From Winogradskyella wichelsiae (GTDB taxonomy: Bacteria; Bacteroidota; Bacteroidia; Flavobacteriales; Flavobacteriaceae): DNA of 64,000 nt. The translations under genes were made by a program, and so were the position numbers. Position 1 is the first letter of the stretch. Every line of letters starts with the position of its first letter. Of this stretch, positions 18,676 to 24,426 are shown piece after piece. The stretch spans positions 124,001-188,000 of the forward strand of contig NZ_JABFDJ010000006.1 in NCBI RefSeq assembly GCF_013403925.1, written 5' to 3'. The notes under the pieces were generated by a model. It was given only the letters and a program-made list of their open reading frames with translations. It made no database searches and was not told where the DNA came from.

Positions 18676-20433
18676 ATGAAAAAATTATTACTACTAACCT
18701 TATTATTAGTTGCTTGTAACGAAAAAACGGATAAACCAGTTGAACCTGAAACTCAACCTAAACCAGATTTCACTACCGTTTTTGAAATAAGTGAAGGATT
18801 AGAAACAGCAACTTACAATGAAACTATAGCTTATTATGAAGCATTAGCTAATACATATTCAGAAATTTCAACGCAAGAAATTGGTAAAACAGACGCAGGT
18901 AAACCTTTACATATTGTTACATTAAACATGAAGGGTTCTGGTGCAGATTTTGAAACCCTAAAAAAAAATAATAGAATTATTTTAATCAACAACGGTATTC
19001 ACCCAGGGGAATCTGACGGAATTGATGCTACCATGATGCTTTTTAGAGATATCGCTGAAGGTAAAGTTGAAGCACCAAAAAATACAATTGTAGTAACTAT
19101 TCCTATTTATAATATAGGTGGAAGTTTAAATAGAAATTCTACGAGTAGAACCAACCAAAATGGACCAGAAGAATATGGTTTTAGAGGCAATGCTCGTAAT
19201 TACGATTTAAATCGTGATTTTATAAAATCGGACACTGAAAACGCAAAAACATTTGCTCAAATTTTTCATTTAGTACAACCTGATATTTTTATAGATAACC
19301 ACGTTAGTAATGGTGCAGATTATCAATATACATTAACCCATTTATTTACACAGCATAATAAATTAGGTGGTACGCTTGGTGACTTTATTCACACGGAAAT
19401 AATGCCAACATTAGAACAAAAACTAGAAACTAAATCTTGGGACATTACACCATATGTCAATGTTTTTAACCGCACACCAGATTCAGGATTTTCACAGTTT
19501 TTAGATACACCTCGTTATTCTACGGGTTACACTACTTTATTTAACACGCTTGGTATGATGGTAGAAACTCACATGCTTAAACCTTATAAACAACGTGTAG
19601 AAGGCACTTATGAAGTTATAAAAAGCATGATTGAAATCACTGAAGAACAAGGTGAGAAAATAACGAAACTCAGAAAGCAACAAGCTAAATTATGGACTGC
19701 TGGTAACCATTACCCTTTAGCCTGGGAAGTTGACACCACCAAATCATCAACAAGAGATTTTAAAGGTTATGAAGGCGAAATGATTCCGAGTGAACTTACC
19801 GGAGCCACACGTTTAAAATATGACAGAGCTAAGCCTTTTACTAAAGAAATTAATTATCAAGATTATTTTAAAGCTACAGATTCTGTTACCATTCCTAAAG
19901 CCTATATCATTCCACAAGGATGGCATAACGTCATTGATTTATTAAAATTAAATAATGTGGCCTTCACTCAATTTGAAAACGATACAACTCTCACCGTTGA
20001 ATCTTATAAAATAGGAAATTATGAAACCCGAAAATCACCTTACGAGGGGCACTACGCTCATTACAATACAGAAGTAACAACGTCTAGCAAAAAAATAACA
20101 TTTAGAAAAGGTGATTATTTGATTTCTACAAATCAAAAGGCAATACGTTATTTAATTGAAACATTAGAACCAACGCCTATAGATTCTTTTTTTAACTGGA
20201 ATTTCTTCGACACCATTCTACAACAAAAAGAAGGTTTTTCACCTTATGTTTGGGAAGATAAAGCTGAAGAACTTTTAAAAGGAGATAAAAAACTTCAAAT
20301 GGAATTTAACGTAAAAATCAGTTACGATGATGAATTTGCAAATAGTTGGTATGCACAATTAGATTGGTTACATAAACAAAGCAAACATTATGAGAAGGCT
20401 CATTTACAATACCCTGTTTATCGCGTAAAATAA
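18676..20433 (+). CDS. M14-family zinc metallopeptidase, lipoprotein, 585 aa
   Basis: The lipoprotein signal ends LVAC at about residue 14, so the enzyme is probably anchored in the envelope facing the periplasm or surface. The carboxypeptidase-type catalytic domain (about 40-330) has the zinc motif NNGIHPGESDG (His and Glu ligands), the substrate residues ARNYDLNRDF, and DNHVSNGADYQYT carrying the second His ligand. The catalytic Glu is probably in MMVETHMLKPY. The remaining 250 residues form an additional domain found in long Bacteroidota M14 proteins. It should cleave C-terminal residues from peptides. A small lipoprotein gene lies 55 bp downstream, then the amidoligase trio. Confidence 0.87.
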   Translation: MKKLLLLTLLLVACNEKTDKPVEPETQPKPDFTTVFEISEGLETATYNETIAYYEALANTYSEISTQEIGKTDAGKPLHIVTLNMKGSGADFETLKKNNRIILINNGIHPGESDGIDATMMLFRDIAEGKVEAPKNTIVVTIPIYNIGGSLNRNSTSRTNQNGPEEYGFRGNARNYDLNRDFIKSDTENAKTFAQIFHLVQPDIFIDNHVSNGADYQYTLTHLFTQHNKLGGTLGDFIHTEIMPTLEQKLETKSWDITPYVNVFNRTPDSGFSQFLDTPRYSTGYTTLFNTLGMMVETHMLKPYKQRVEGTYEVIKSMIEITEEQGEKITKLRKQQAKLWTAGNHYPLAWEVDTTKSSTRDFKGYEGEMIPSELTGATRLKYDRAKPFTKEINYQDYFKATDSVTIPKAYIIPQGWHNVIDLLKLNNVAFTQFENDTTLTVESYKIGNYETRKSPYEGHYAHYNTEVTTSSKKITFRKGDYLISTNQKAIRYLIETLEPTPIDSFFNWNFFDTILQQKEGFSPYVWEDKAEELLKGDKKLQMEFNVKISYDDEFANSWYAQLDWLHKQSKHYEKAHLQYPVYRVK

Positions 20434-20488: not shown

Positions 20489-20935
20489 ATGAAAAATAAA
20501 ATTTTTAGTCTATTGTTTTTGGTTCTAATAGTTAGTTGTGCATTAGAATCTAAATTTGGGTTACCAAATGACGAAGAAATTAATACAGAATTAATAGGAA
20601 CTTGGCTTGATATAAAAGCAAACGAAATGCTTATGATTAAAAAAAATAACGAAATGAGTTATAAACTGATTCCTAATGACAGTACAGAGATCATTTCTTA
20701 TTCTAAAAAAATTAAAGGGTTTAATGTTTTAAACATCGTTACAAATGACAACGGAGTTAAAACAAATTCCTTCTTTGGTTTTGAACTTAGAAATGACACA
20801 TTAGAATTCTCTGAAGTAAATAAAGACCTAAAAGAAACTGATTTTAATTCTCAAGCTGAATTAATTAAATTTTTCAATGAAAATATTGATAAAAAAGGAT
20901 TCTTTATTAATCATACAATAGTAATTAGAGAGTAA
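20489..20935 (+). CDS. Hypothetical small lipoprotein, 148 aa
   Basis: The family is not recognised. The signal peptide ends in a lipobox IVSC at about residue 17. The mature part has a short pattern common in small Bacteroidota lipoproteins, beginning ELIGTWLDI and followed by alternating strands (YKLIPNDSTEIISYS, LNIVTNDNGVKT), suggesting a lipocalin-like beta barrel; that is an inference from pattern only. It follows the M14 peptidase gene by 55 bp on the same strand. Confidence 0.7.
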   Translation: MKNKIFSLLFLVLIVSCALESKFGLPNDEEINTELIGTWLDIKANEMLMIKKNNEMSYKLIPNDSTEIISYSKKIKGFNVLNIVTNDNGVKTNSFFGFELRNDTLEFSEVNKDLKETDFNSQAELIKFFNENIDKKGFFINHTIVIRE

Positions 20936-21070
20936 AAAACGATATATAGAACTAATTTAAGACCTTATTTTCAACACATTAAAATCTGAAAAATGTTTTT
21001 AAACGAATGTAAAAGCAATTAAAAAATAATATACATTTACTTAAAATTATAATAGCGTAATGCACTCTAA

Positions 21071-22516
21071 ATGAATAAATATATTGTTGTAAATCAACCT
21101 GAAAAATGGAACTTTTCAATTGATAATATAACTGTAATTTCTGCTCAAGATTATCTTACAAATCCTAAGTATTCTTTATTAAAAAATGCACGTATTTTTA
21201 ATTTGTGCAAAGATTACTCGTATCAATCTAAGGGGTATTACGTATCACTTTTGGCAGAAGCCAGAGGTCACTTACCAATTCCAACTACAAAAAACATTGT
21301 AGATCTTAAAGCTTTAAAATTAGTAAGAATAGTCTCTGATGAATTTGATGATGTTATTCAACAAAGTTTAAAGAACATTAAATCGCAAGATTTTACGCTA
21401 AGTATTTATTTTGGACAAAATGTAGCTCAGAAATACAAAAACTTAAGTGCTTTGTTTTATAAGCATTTTCAAGTTCCGTTTTTACGTGTTAATTTTAACC
21501 ATACAACAAAATGGAACATTCAGGGTATTAAAGCGATTTCAGAATCTGAAATTCCAGAAGAACACAAACCTAGCGTTCGCGAATTTGCTAATCAGTATTT
21601 TTCTAAGAAAAGATATGACACTGCTAAAGTTGCCAATCATGATTTTGACTTGGCTATTTTAGTTAACCCCAATGATCCGGCTCCACCAAGTAATCCTAAA
21701 GCCTTAAAAAAGTTTATAGAAATTGCTGAAAAGATGAATATCTATGCAGAGATTATTGAACCCAAAGATTTATCGAGACTCTCTTCTTTTGATGCATTAT
21801 TTTTAAGACAAAGCACGGAGGTGAATAATGAAGCCTACACTTTTGCCAGAAAAGCACAACAAGAAGGCATAGCGATCATAGATTATCCAAATGCCATTTT
21901 AAAATGCTGCAACAAAGTATATATGGCAGAAGCCATGAACAATGCTAACATTAGTACACCAAAAACAGTCATTGTACACAGTAATAATCGGAATTCTGTT
22001 TTAGAACAAACAGGATTACCTTGTGTGTTAAAAGCACCAGATTCTACTTTTTCGTTTGGCGTTAAAAAAGCACAAACACAAGAAGAGTATGATATTCTAG
22101 TAACAGAAATGCTTAAGGAATCTGATTTAATAATTGCCCAAGAGTTTTGTCCTTCAGATTATGATTGGCGTATTGGTATTATAGATAATAAACCTTTTTT
22201 TGCTTGTAAATATTATATGGCAAAAGGCCATTGGCAAATTTACAATTGGAAAGCAACCAATAAAAACGAACAAGATGGTGATGCTGATTGTTTAGCAATT
22301 GAAGATGTGCCAAAAAACGTTATTGATATCGCACTAAAATCTGCTAAATTAATGGGACTTGGACTCTATGGTGTTGACATAAAAGTTGTAGATGGCAAAT
22401 TAATGGTTATTGAAATTAACGACAATCCTAATATTGATTTTGGTGTAGAGGATGCGCATTATGGAGATGTCGTTTACAAAAAGATTCTTACTGCACTTAA
22501 AAAACGACTAGAGTAA
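21071..22516 (+). CDS. RimK-like ATP-grasp amidoligase with RLAN domain, 481 aa
   Basis: This cytoplasmic ligase should join a carboxylate to an amino group with ATP. The N-terminal half (about 1-200) fits the RLAN domain that precedes certain RimK-like ATP-grasp enzymes (YQSKGYYVSLLAEARGH). The ATP-grasp part (about 205-481) shows PNDPAPPSNPKALKKF, the lid LPCVLKAPDSTFSFGVKKA, and the Mg-binding end MVIEINDNPNIDFG. Three bases separate its stop from the next gene, a GCS2 ligase. The substrate is unknown; family members add glutamate or similar amino acids to proteins or small molecules. Confidence 0.88.
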   Translation: MNKYIVVNQPEKWNFSIDNITVISAQDYLTNPKYSLLKNARIFNLCKDYSYQSKGYYVSLLAEARGHLPIPTTKNIVDLKALKLVRIVSDEFDDVIQQSLKNIKSQDFTLSIYFGQNVAQKYKNLSALFYKHFQVPFLRVNFNHTTKWNIQGIKAISESEIPEEHKPSVREFANQYFSKKRYDTAKVANHDFDLAILVNPNDPAPPSNPKALKKFIEIAEKMNIYAEIIEPKDLSRLSSFDALFLRQSTEVNNEAYTFARKAQQEGIAIIDYPNAILKCCNKVYMAEAMNNANISTPKTVIVHSNNRNSVLEQTGLPCVLKAPDSTFSFGVKKAQTQEEYDILVTEMLKESDLIIAQEFCPSDYDWRIGIIDNKPFFACKYYMAKGHWQIYNWKATNKNEQDGDADCLAIEDVPKNVIDIALKSAKLMGLGLYGVDIKVVDGKLMVIEINDNPNIDFGVEDAHYGDVVYKKILTALKKRLE

Positions 22517-22519
22517 ATA

Positions 22520-23746
22520 ATGATTAAAAAATATCACTTATTCGAAGTTTATGGAATTGAACTCGAATATATGTTAGTTAACAATAAAACATTTAAAGTT
22601 GCGCCTCAAGTTGATGAACTACTCACCTTAAAAGCTGGTAAAATAGAAGCAGATATTGATAACGGAGCTATTGCTTGGAGTAACGAATTGGTTGCGCATG
22701 TCATTGAACTAAAAACTAATGGACCAGCAAAAAATACAGATGATTTATCCGACAAATTCCATGCTAACATTTTAGAAATTGATACACTTTTACAGCCATT
22801 AGATTTACAGCTTCTGGGCTCTGCATCTCACCCTCTGATGAATCCAAACACAGATACACAACTTTGGAAACACAGTTATAGTAAAGTTTATGCACTTTAC
22901 AATACTATTTTCAATTGCAAAGGTCACGGTTGGAGTAATGTGCAAAGCACACATATTAATCTACCATTTTATGATGACAAGGAATTTGAAAAACTACATG
23001 CAGCAATTAGAATCATCTTACCTATTTTACCAGGATTATCTGCGAGTTCACCAATTTTAGAAGGAAAAATAACAGAATTTAAAGACACAAGATTAGAGTT
23101 TTATAAAACGAATCAAAAAGAAATCCCTGAATTAACGGGTTTGGTAATTCCGGAACGGACATTTTCAAAATTAGATTATTATGCTACAATTTTAGAACCT
23201 ATAAAACGCGCCATTCAACCTTATGATAAAGACAAAATTTTAGATCAACATTTTCTAAATTCTCGTGGTGCTATTGCTCGTTTTGACAGAAATGCAATTG
23301 AAATACGTTTGCTAGATATTCAAGAATGTCCCAAAGCAGATATTGCTATTTGTGCATTAATTATTGAAGTTTTAAAAGCGTTAGTCAATAAAGAATTTGG
23401 CACTGTGAAAGATCAAAAATCATGGACTAAAGAAGACTTATTTCCTATTTTGAATGACTCTATAAAACACGCCGAAAATTCTAAAATTAAAAATAAAGAC
23501 TATTTAAAATTATTCGGAATAAAAGAGTCTTCAAGTGTTAGTGAACTTTGGAAACACTTATACCAATCTGTAAAACCAAAATTGCACCAATCTCATTATA
23601 CTGCAGTTGAATTAATTTTGAAAGAAGGCACTTTGGCTACAAGAATACTCAAAGCAGTTGGTACTGAAAATAATGACACTCATATTATTTCAGTTTACAG
23701 ACAGCTTCAAAAATGTCTACAAGCTAATGAATTATTTCAACCTTGA
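22520..23746 (+). CDS. GCS2-family glutamate-cysteine ligase-like enzyme, 408 aa
   Basis: This member of the glutamate-cysteine ligase type 2 (YbdK-like) superfamily activates a carboxylate with ATP to form a gamma-glutamyl-type amide. The GCS2 start motif is FEVYGIELEYML with metal-binding Glu residues (9-20), followed by STHINLPF, LPGLSASSP and RFDRNAIEIRLLDIQEC. The length is near the family norm. It sits between the RimK-like ligase (3 bp gap) and the amidohydrolase, whose TTG start overlaps its TGA stop. Glutathione synthesis is not implied, because no GshB follows and the RimK/FGase pairing points to another product. Confidence 0.88.
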   Translation: MIKKYHLFEVYGIELEYMLVNNKTFKVAPQVDELLTLKAGKIEADIDNGAIAWSNELVAHVIELKTNGPAKNTDDLSDKFHANILEIDTLLQPLDLQLLGSASHPLMNPNTDTQLWKHSYSKVYALYNTIFNCKGHGWSNVQSTHINLPFYDDKEFEKLHAAIRIILPILPGLSASSPILEGKITEFKDTRLEFYKTNQKEIPELTGLVIPERTFSKLDYYATILEPIKRAIQPYDKDKILDQHFLNSRGAIARFDRNAIEIRLLDIQECPKADIAICALIIEVLKALVNKEFGTVKDQKSWTKEDLFPILNDSIKHAENSKIKNKDYLKLFGIKESSSVSELWKHLYQSVKPKLHQSHYTAVELILKEGTLATRILKAVGTENNDTHIISVYRQLQKCLQANELFQP

Positions 23747-24426
23747 AACTCGTTTTAACTTGTGAGCATGGCGGAAACGAAATTCCTACGACTTACAAAA
23801 AGCACTTTAAAAATAAAGTTATTTTAAAAACTCATCGCGCTTTAGATTTGGGTGCTTTAGATCTATTTCAAACTTTAAAACCGTTATCTGACGCTTCTTA
23901 TTTCAGCACAACATCACGTTTATTAATAGAACTAAATCGTTCATTACATCATAAAAACTTATTTTCTGAGTACATAAAAGACCTCACTAAAATTGAGAAA
24001 ACAAAAATTATAAATATTCATTATTTACCGTACAGAACATCTGTAGAAGATAATATTAGAAGCTTTATTAAAAAGGGTGATTCAGTACTTCATTTATCTA
24101 TTCATAGTTTTACACCTTCTTTAAATGGAGAAAATAGAAACTGTGATATTGGCTTATTGTATAATTCTTCTAACAAACAAGAAAAACAGTTGTGCAAACA
24201 ATTAAAGTTAGAACTTTTAAAACAAGACCCGAACTTAAACGTAAGATTCAACTATCCGTATTTAGGAAAAGCTGATGGGTTTACAACCTATTTAAGAAAA
24301 CAATTTTCAGTACATTATTTAGGAATTGAAATTGAAGTGAATCAGAAATTTACAAAAGACAACCTATTTGATTCTGGTATAAAAACAAAACTATTTAATG
24401 CTGTTTCGATATTAAATTCTAAATAA
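23743..24426 (+). CDS. N-formylglutamate amidohydrolase-like enzyme, 227 aa
   Basis: This protein belongs to the N-formylglutamate amidohydrolase (FGase/HutG-like) family. The N-terminal strand LVLTCEHGGNEIP carries the conserved metal His, HLSIHSFTPSLNG the second His, and LGIEIEVNQ a C-terminal Glu. No histidine-utilisation genes are nearby, so the substrate is probably the product of the two upstream ligases, an inference. The start is TTG at 23743, overlapping the preceding TGA; there is no internal Met anywhere in the frame, so no alternative ATG exists. A terminator follows about 100 bp downstream. Confidence 0.85.
   Translation: MKLVLTCEHGGNEIPTTYKKHFKNKVILKTHRALDLGALDLFQTLKPLSDASYFSTTSRLLIELNRSLHHKNLFSEYIKDLTKIEKTKIINIHYLPYRTSVEDNIRSFIKKGDSVLHLSIHSFTPSLNGENRNCDIGLLYNSSNKQEKQLCKQLKLELLKQDPNLNVRFNYPYLGKADGFTTYLRKQFSVHYLGIEIEVNQKFTKDNLFDSGIKTKLFNAVSILNSK

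Follow-up and report, generated by a model that had tools for sequence, protein, structure and literature searches.

The window analyzed here, a stretch of 64,000 nucleotides from Winogradskyella wichelsiae (contig NZ_JABFDJ010000006.1, positions 124,001 to 188,000), contains adjacent genes for an RLAN-RimK ATP-grasp ligase, a GCS2 carboxylate-amine ligase and an FGase-type amidohydrolase, which raises the question of whether this trio is a single system and, if so, what it makes. The trio is a real unit. As to its product, our preferred reading, to which we assign a probability of roughly 45%, is that the trio forms an operon, complete in itself and of patchy distribution, that makes a small peptide metabolite of glutamyl type, which GCS2 would cap and FGase would trim or recycle. 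The open PubMed Central literature yielded no paper combining ATP-grasp, GCS2 and N-formylglutamate amidohydrolase, and its accessible portions contained none naming the product of such a cluster.

A three-gene unit in variable surroundings

The trio and the leader elements described below lie on the forward strand. The first gene (21071..22516; 481 amino acids) encodes an RLAN domain (about residues 25-170, 21143..21580; PF14401, E 1.9e-48) fused to a RimK-type ATP-grasp domain (about residues 282-456, 21914..22438; PF08443, 9.2e-9, and alignment to the RimK structure 7qyr), the architecture of an RLAN-type ligase. After a 3-bp gap (22517-22519) follows the GCS2 gene (22520..23746; 408 amino acids; PF04107, 7.9e-27), whose TGA stop overlaps the TTG start of the FGase gene (23743..24426; 227 amino acids; PF05013, 1.9e-17) within a TTGA read from the sequence (23743..23746). 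These open reading frames (ORFs) match exactly the three adjacent genes given in a preliminary description of the locus, and its proposal of two ATP-dependent ligases and an amidohydrolase in one unit agrees with the Pfam domains, the gene order and the co-occurrence of the genes. All three proteins exceed the curated Pfam cut-offs, and the second and third, which also carry the motif residues of their families, belong to GCS2 and FGase, respectively. PF14401 and PF05013 each have a single match in the host genome (3.9 Mb), the latter being the FGase of the trio. At the curated cut-offs of NCBIfam, no family was found among the matches listed for RLAN-RimK (25 of 29) and GCS2 (7), and FGase had zero matches. 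The nearest solved relative of GCS2 is YbdK (1r8g, E 4.9e-4), and FGase aligns with Atu2144 (2odf) at E 1.3e-10.

Co-occurrence across genomes, which the preliminary description had proposed as a check, proved to be non-random. Of 37 genomes of the genus, that of the host among them, 12 have RLAN, and exactly these also encode the GCS2 protein and, next to it, an FGase. The other 25 lack both RLAN and trio-type GCS2, a pattern with odds of 1 in 1.9e9 if the genes were independent and relatedness is ignored; in genome G317, the GCS2 match is split in two pieces. FGase matches other than that of the trio, mostly in frames of 276-307 amino acids, turned up in 18 of the 25 genomes without the trio and in 3 of the 12 that have it. 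In each of the 11 trio-negative genomes fetched (of 25), the site is empty and the order M14-type gene, Nudix gene, pyrE is kept. We also collected 80 named loci, the best of 173 relatives found with the RimK protein and close kin to one another. The nearest of them point to Winogradskyella, and the RimK of L003 matches that of the window at 100%. RimK and GCS2 are present in 80/80 and FGase in 77/80, and these 77 have the order RimK-GCS2-FGase on one strand. Two of the loci lacking FGase (L035 and L067) end at contig ends, and the third (L017, Brumimicrobium) has none in its 21 kb; the GCS2 match is shortened in L051 and cut by the contig end in L035. RimK and GCS2 are separated by 1-3 bp in 61 of 78 loci, and an NTGA (N = A, G or T) contains the stop of GCS2 in 62 of 75. 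Distances between RimK proteins and those between GCS2 proteins are closely correlated, with r 0.89 over 75 loci; the subset of 32 that includes PyrE gives 0.86, vs 0.67 for RimK and PyrE. FGase distances are looser (0.67 with RimK, 0.71 with GCS2).

At the level of the class (295 genomes), RLAN matches were found in 19 genomes, 18 of them above the cut-off. We dropped G049 (25.1 bits vs 25, with one internal stop) and G118 (below the cut-off), as the stretches of both were without an RLAN-RimK match. Strong RLAN thus occurs in 17 genomes and trio-type GCS2 in 17, with both present in 13 (p 3e-16, relatedness ignored).

The surroundings of the unit vary. The immediate flanks fall into 38 label combinations in the 80 loci, where a contig end or an unclustered gene is also taken as a label, and the commonest non-trio neighbors within the stretches are the M14-type gene (38/80), Nudix (33/80) and pyrE (33/80). 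The M14-type protein of the window (18676-20433), named by eye and without a Pfam match, was rejected as a component, having a close match in 37/37 genus genomes regardless of the trio; its gene is the site at which the trio lies. The ORF at 20489-20935, also without a Pfam match, was set aside as it occurs in only one of the 80 loci (L003). In 11 of 80 loci, the gene immediately preceding the trio encodes a GNAT-nitrilase fusion, and 14 have this gene somewhere in the stretch; strong matches occur in 10/12 trio-positive vs 8/25 trio-negative congeners (Fisher p 0.005), a distribution that makes it an associated but dispensable gene. On host contig C11 (L145:5677-10594), GNAT-nitrilase is found beside a deoxyhypusine-synthase-like gene detected by Pfam, with agmatinase- and decarboxylase-like genes, named by eye, nearby.

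Despite the differing flanks, the leader before the RimK start is alike across loci. In the window, it contains a TGTAAAA element (21008..21014) and the promoter-like TAnnTTTR element TACATTTA (21032..21039), both recognized by motif comparison, the second of which resembles the Bacteroidetes -7 element. We compared 80 leaders (the window and 79 loci, which are related and so not independent) with 953 control ORFs. TAnnTTTR is present at -48..-26 in 69/80 leaders vs 149/953 controls, and TGTAAAW or TGTGAAT at -70..-50 in 51/80, with TGTAAAW in 8/953 controls; TAnnTTTR and TGTAAAW are found jointly in 48/80 vs 1/953. The cassette seems to carry its own promoter.

Conserved residues and predicted chemistry

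To judge from motif residues, all three proteins may be active enzymes of their families. Conservation was scored in 16 diverse RimK parts (the window included), 10 GCS2 and 9 FGase sequences, and the positions scored in the latter two families were our own choice. Five of the seven RLAN-RimK positions that correspond to residues named for RimK (R246, K321, R367, D436 and E448) are invariant in 16/16 sequences, and N450 is kept in 15/16, as befits an ATP-grasp ligase. In GCS2, G12, E14, E16, H145, R191, E261, R263 and D266 are invariant in 10/10, and in FGase, C7, E8, H9, H31, R59, N65, R66, H121 and E196 are invariant in 9/9; these positions are taken to include the catalytic residues of the two families. 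The loss of catalytic residues, named in the preliminary description as grounds for abandoning its proposal, was not seen in the alignments. According to the accessible text of PMC10092738, R64, R189, N262 and K141 of Pseudomonas RimK bind the polyglutamate chain or the nucleotide in the crystal. In the alignment to 7qyr, these residues correspond to R246, R367, N450 and K321, all of which are kept, while RimK R8 is without a counterpart, its place (matched by eye) being occupied by N, D or Q in the RLAN-RimK sequences. With these residues kept and the R8 place changed, the chemistry of RLAN-RimK looks retained and part of the acceptor site looks different, which fits an RLAN domain that selects a different acceptor.

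In the pathway that we propose, RLAN-RimK would use ATP to activate a carboxylate and join it to an amino acid, forming a peptide bond by the same chemistry as RimK, with the RLAN domain selecting the acceptor. GCS2 would then activate the gamma-carboxylate of glutamate, its presumed substrate, and add a gamma-glutamyl cap to an amine, in the place of the acetyl cap that a GNAT acetyltransferase would set in sister systems. FGase would cleave an N-acyl or gamma-glutamyl amide for editing or recycling, and the product would be a free metabolite. Both the ligase chemistry and the gamma-glutamyl chemistry are inferred by us from the families to which the proteins belong.

The same families also have textbook roles, in which GCS2 would make gamma-glutamylcysteine for a glutathione-like thiol, together with RLAN-RimK or another ligase, or FGase would act as HutG. 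The preliminary description had held that these roles do not fit, on the ground that no histidine-utilization or glutathione genes are present. That ground does not hold for the genome, which encodes a urocanase (contig C22) and a GshB-like protein with both glutathione-synthetase domains (contig C57) that could serve as the partner ligase, and in which PF05013 matches nothing but the FGase of the trio. Neither gene is near the trio, which itself adjoins no hut gene, and by eye no further one was recognized among ORFs of at least 150 amino acids in 18 kb around the urocanase gene; the probes covered one hut and one glutathione family, other genes of either kind were outside the search, and the rest of the window was not annotated for them. 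Moreover, GCS2 scores only 40.6 vs 249 for the cyanobacterial glutamate-cysteine ligase (GCL) model and 55.9 vs 176 for the YbdK type, FGase is without an NCBIfam match or hut context that would mark it as HutG, and 25 of 37 congeners manage without the trio. The conclusion that textbook roles misfit therefore stands in a weaker form, and we regard these roles as very unlikely. The GshB-like gene itself sits not with the trio but in a row with genes for a MATCAP-type peptidase and an AstE-type hydrolase (C57, L164:524-4367), a further operon that pairs ligase and hydrolase. A RimK with a Rimk_N domain is likewise encoded beside an AstE-type gene, and with RLAN-RimK counted, three ATP-grasp ligases of the host genome have a hydrolase gene as a neighbor, so that the pairing of ligase and hydrolase may be a recurring theme.

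Relatives of the trio and the case for a capped metabolite

The trio is not the complete system. Relatives in other families mostly add a C39-type cysteine peptidase, and the ligase also has cousins fused to GNAT, which alters the pathway to be expected. Among the 13 class genomes with RLAN and GCS2, C39 is found upstream in 11 and FGase is present in 8. Four class genomes have RLAN but not GCS2, three of them with GNAT-RLAN-RimK fusions (L113, L118 and L119, all detected with a GNAT profile and L113 also by Pfam) and one with FGase only (L106). Of five records fetched from a plasmid collection, those of Azospirillum and Tistrella have upstream a gene in which GNAT is fused to the C39-type peptidase (L123 and L126), that of P. 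aeruginosa has neither GNAT nor C39 upstream, that of Aeromonas has only a GNAT-like frame on the opposite strand, and that of Legionella adelaidensis carries the trio. The last, labeled plasmid 27 (NZ_LR134436.1), was rejected as proof of plasmid carriage, since it carries dapF, fur and bamE and is probably a mislabeled piece of chromosome. Fusion of DUF3335 proteins with GNAT is described as frequent in the accessible part of a work on papain-like peptidases (PMC10318531).

GCS2 is absent from all five GNAT-fused stretches, and the GNAT profile found no match in 12 class loci with GCS2, the Legionella trio or the 80 named loci. GNAT and GCS2 thus mostly replace one another, a pattern suggesting that the RLAN-RimK product is capped at its amine end by either enzyme. 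Taken further, this would mean that GCS2 replaced GNAT as the cap enzyme of an old ATP-grasp peptide system, turning an acetylated product into a gamma-glutamyl-capped one made by a mobile cassette with its own promoter. We consider this extension unlikely, giving it less weight because of the GNAT-nitrilase gene adjoining the trio in 11 of 80 loci.

From the 102 RimK parts collected, 38 were used for a phylogenetic tree, in which several long branches were flagged. It placed the three GNAT-RLAN-RimK fusions in one clade (100/98) and 17 trios, from the host and named loci, in another (100/100). Brumimicrobium, which belongs to another family, nests with Winogradskyella at 100/100; this suggests transfer between lineages, with contamination of the assembly as the alternative. 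No C39 was found near members of the 17-trio clade, there is no C39-type partner in the trio operon of the window, and a search with one 234-amino-acid query found no match in 25/25 genus genomes, that of the host included, although a distant C39 could escape it. These absences bear on a scheme in which the ligases and a C39 peptidase would modify a ribosomal precursor, as in the tailoring of ribosomally synthesized and post-translationally modified peptides (RiPPs). ATP-grasp with C39 is a RiPP-like pairing, and it is seen in 11 of the 13 class operons that combine RLAN with GCS2. Against such a scheme, the genes of the operon overlap or, in most cases, stand only 1-3 bp apart. Small ORFs (15-120 codons) up to 700 bp from the trio gave no convincing precursor, as the eight largest groups listed hold at most 20 loci each and look, in our reading, like alternate frames of flanking genes. 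Tailoring of this kind appears highly improbable.

The main rival to a free metabolite is protein tagging, in which RLAN would recognize a protein, RLAN-RimK would extend its C-terminus with amino acids, the activity of RimK on ribosomal protein S6, GCS2 would add a gamma-glutamyl group to a side chain or terminus, and FGase, elsewhere with C39, would strip the tags in the manner of the RimK/RimB writer and eraser. The retention of the chain-binding residues R246 and R367, the frequency of C39 upstream of class operons, and the two further ATP-grasp ligases that the host genome encodes beside AstE-type hydrolases all speak for tagging, as does an RLAN-less relative of the ligase encoded between the terminase large subunit and portal protein genes of a viral contig (L168:7977-8912; L167 has a match equal in length and score). 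Against it, the Pfam matches do not include PF18030, the RimK N-terminal domain, and the score with the S6-ligase equivalog is 34 vs 331 bits, so that the protein does not qualify as a RimK-type S6 glutamate ligase. No candidate target gene is common to most loci, with the top non-trio neighbor present in 38/80, and in the 25 of 37 congeners without the trio any target would have to manage without its tag. On balance, tagging seems somewhat unlikely.

Several observations nevertheless weigh against a capped metabolite as the product. E358, the equivalent of the ADP-contacting E178 of RimK, is kept in only 12/16 sequences, and GCS2 is distant from every characterized member of its family (best 59.5 bits vs a cut-off of 371). 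In the 32 loci that have PyrE, FGase distances correlate with those of RimK at r 0.64, which is no better than the PyrE value (0.73). Of the 13 class genomes that have RLAN and GCS2, 5 lack FGase, so that its step is more likely one of editing or recycling than obligatory. The lineages that show GNAT and GCS2 apart are few, with the three GNAT-RLAN-RimK fusions forming a single clade, and the separation is not strict, because GNAT-nitrilase, whose diverged GNAT part is missed by the profile and detected by Pfam, adjoins the trio in the 11 loci noted above. Finally, the position of the viral relative between terminase and portal genes would suit protein modification, as would the C39 peptidase of relatives.

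Other relatives differ in composition. In one four-gene operon, a class-II glutamine amidotransferase-like gene (L107:5306-6181) overlaps the C39 gene by 4 bp, hinting at a possible fifth partner. Four class genomes (G123, G154, G211 and G238) have GCS2 and no RLAN match, and these GCS2 genes are apparent relics; in three of the four stretches, GCS2 is followed by a LamG-like gene, named by eye (for example, L158:7109-8374 and L157:6817-8211), and the GIELE motif is changed in one. In further viral contigs (L169, L170, L171 and L174, near 6.6-8.9 kb), a GNAT frame immediately precedes and overlaps a RimK-like frame that has no RLAN, so that GNAT and ligase form a two-gene pair. Another (L173:7998-9158) encodes, close to genes of helicase, DHH and DnaC-like type, an RLAN-RimK protein whose RLAN is missing its second part.

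If GCS2 did replace GNAT, about a third of one marine genus would make a new class of small metabolite. An exchange of caps would further imply that ligase systems may swap caps made with ATP for caps made with acyl-CoA, and would put a name to a new peptide metabolite. Within one genus, strains that carry the trio and strains whose corresponding site is empty provide natural pairs for comparative metabolomics, and a long-noted amidoligase cluster for which no assigned role was found in the literature becomes directly testable.

Comparison with known systems

Comparative genomics by Iyer et al. in 2009 reportedly paired RLAN-RimK-like ATP-grasp proteins with GNAT, C39/DUF3335, GCS2 or FGase. 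The trio shares with these systems the RLAN-RimK core and the GCS2 and FGase partners, but its operon is without the C39 and the GNAT domain found in relatives. Similarly, GCS2 shares family and motifs with the YbdK and GCL carboxylate-amine ligases but is far below their family-specific cut-offs, and FGase shares PF05013 and the conserved E-H and HSFTP motifs with the N-formylglutamate amidohydrolases Atu2144 (2odf) and HutG, but lacks an NCBIfam match and is tied to ligases rather than to hut genes. With the RimK/RimB system of S6 polyglutamylation, as far as the accessible parts of PMC10092738 and PMC12239564 describe it, the trio has in common the ATP-grasp family and several substrate-holding residues, and differs in having RLAN for the RimK N-terminal domain and GCS2 with FGase for RimB.

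The nearest worked-out precedent for capping combined with ligation would be, by analogy, the synthesis of N-acetylglutaminylglutamine amide (NAGGN). Its enzyme Ngg is a fusion of GNAT and ATP-grasp. RLAN-RimK is not an NAGGN synthetase, having no GNAT domain and no TIGR03103 among the matches listed (25 of 29); GCS2 would stand in the capping place, and asparagine synthase is outside the trio. In the accessible text of PMC8070244, Ngg N-acetylates one glutamine and forms the peptide bond, and the operon includes a glutamyl aminopeptidase, so that capping, ligation and a peptidase gene are found together, as we propose for the trio.

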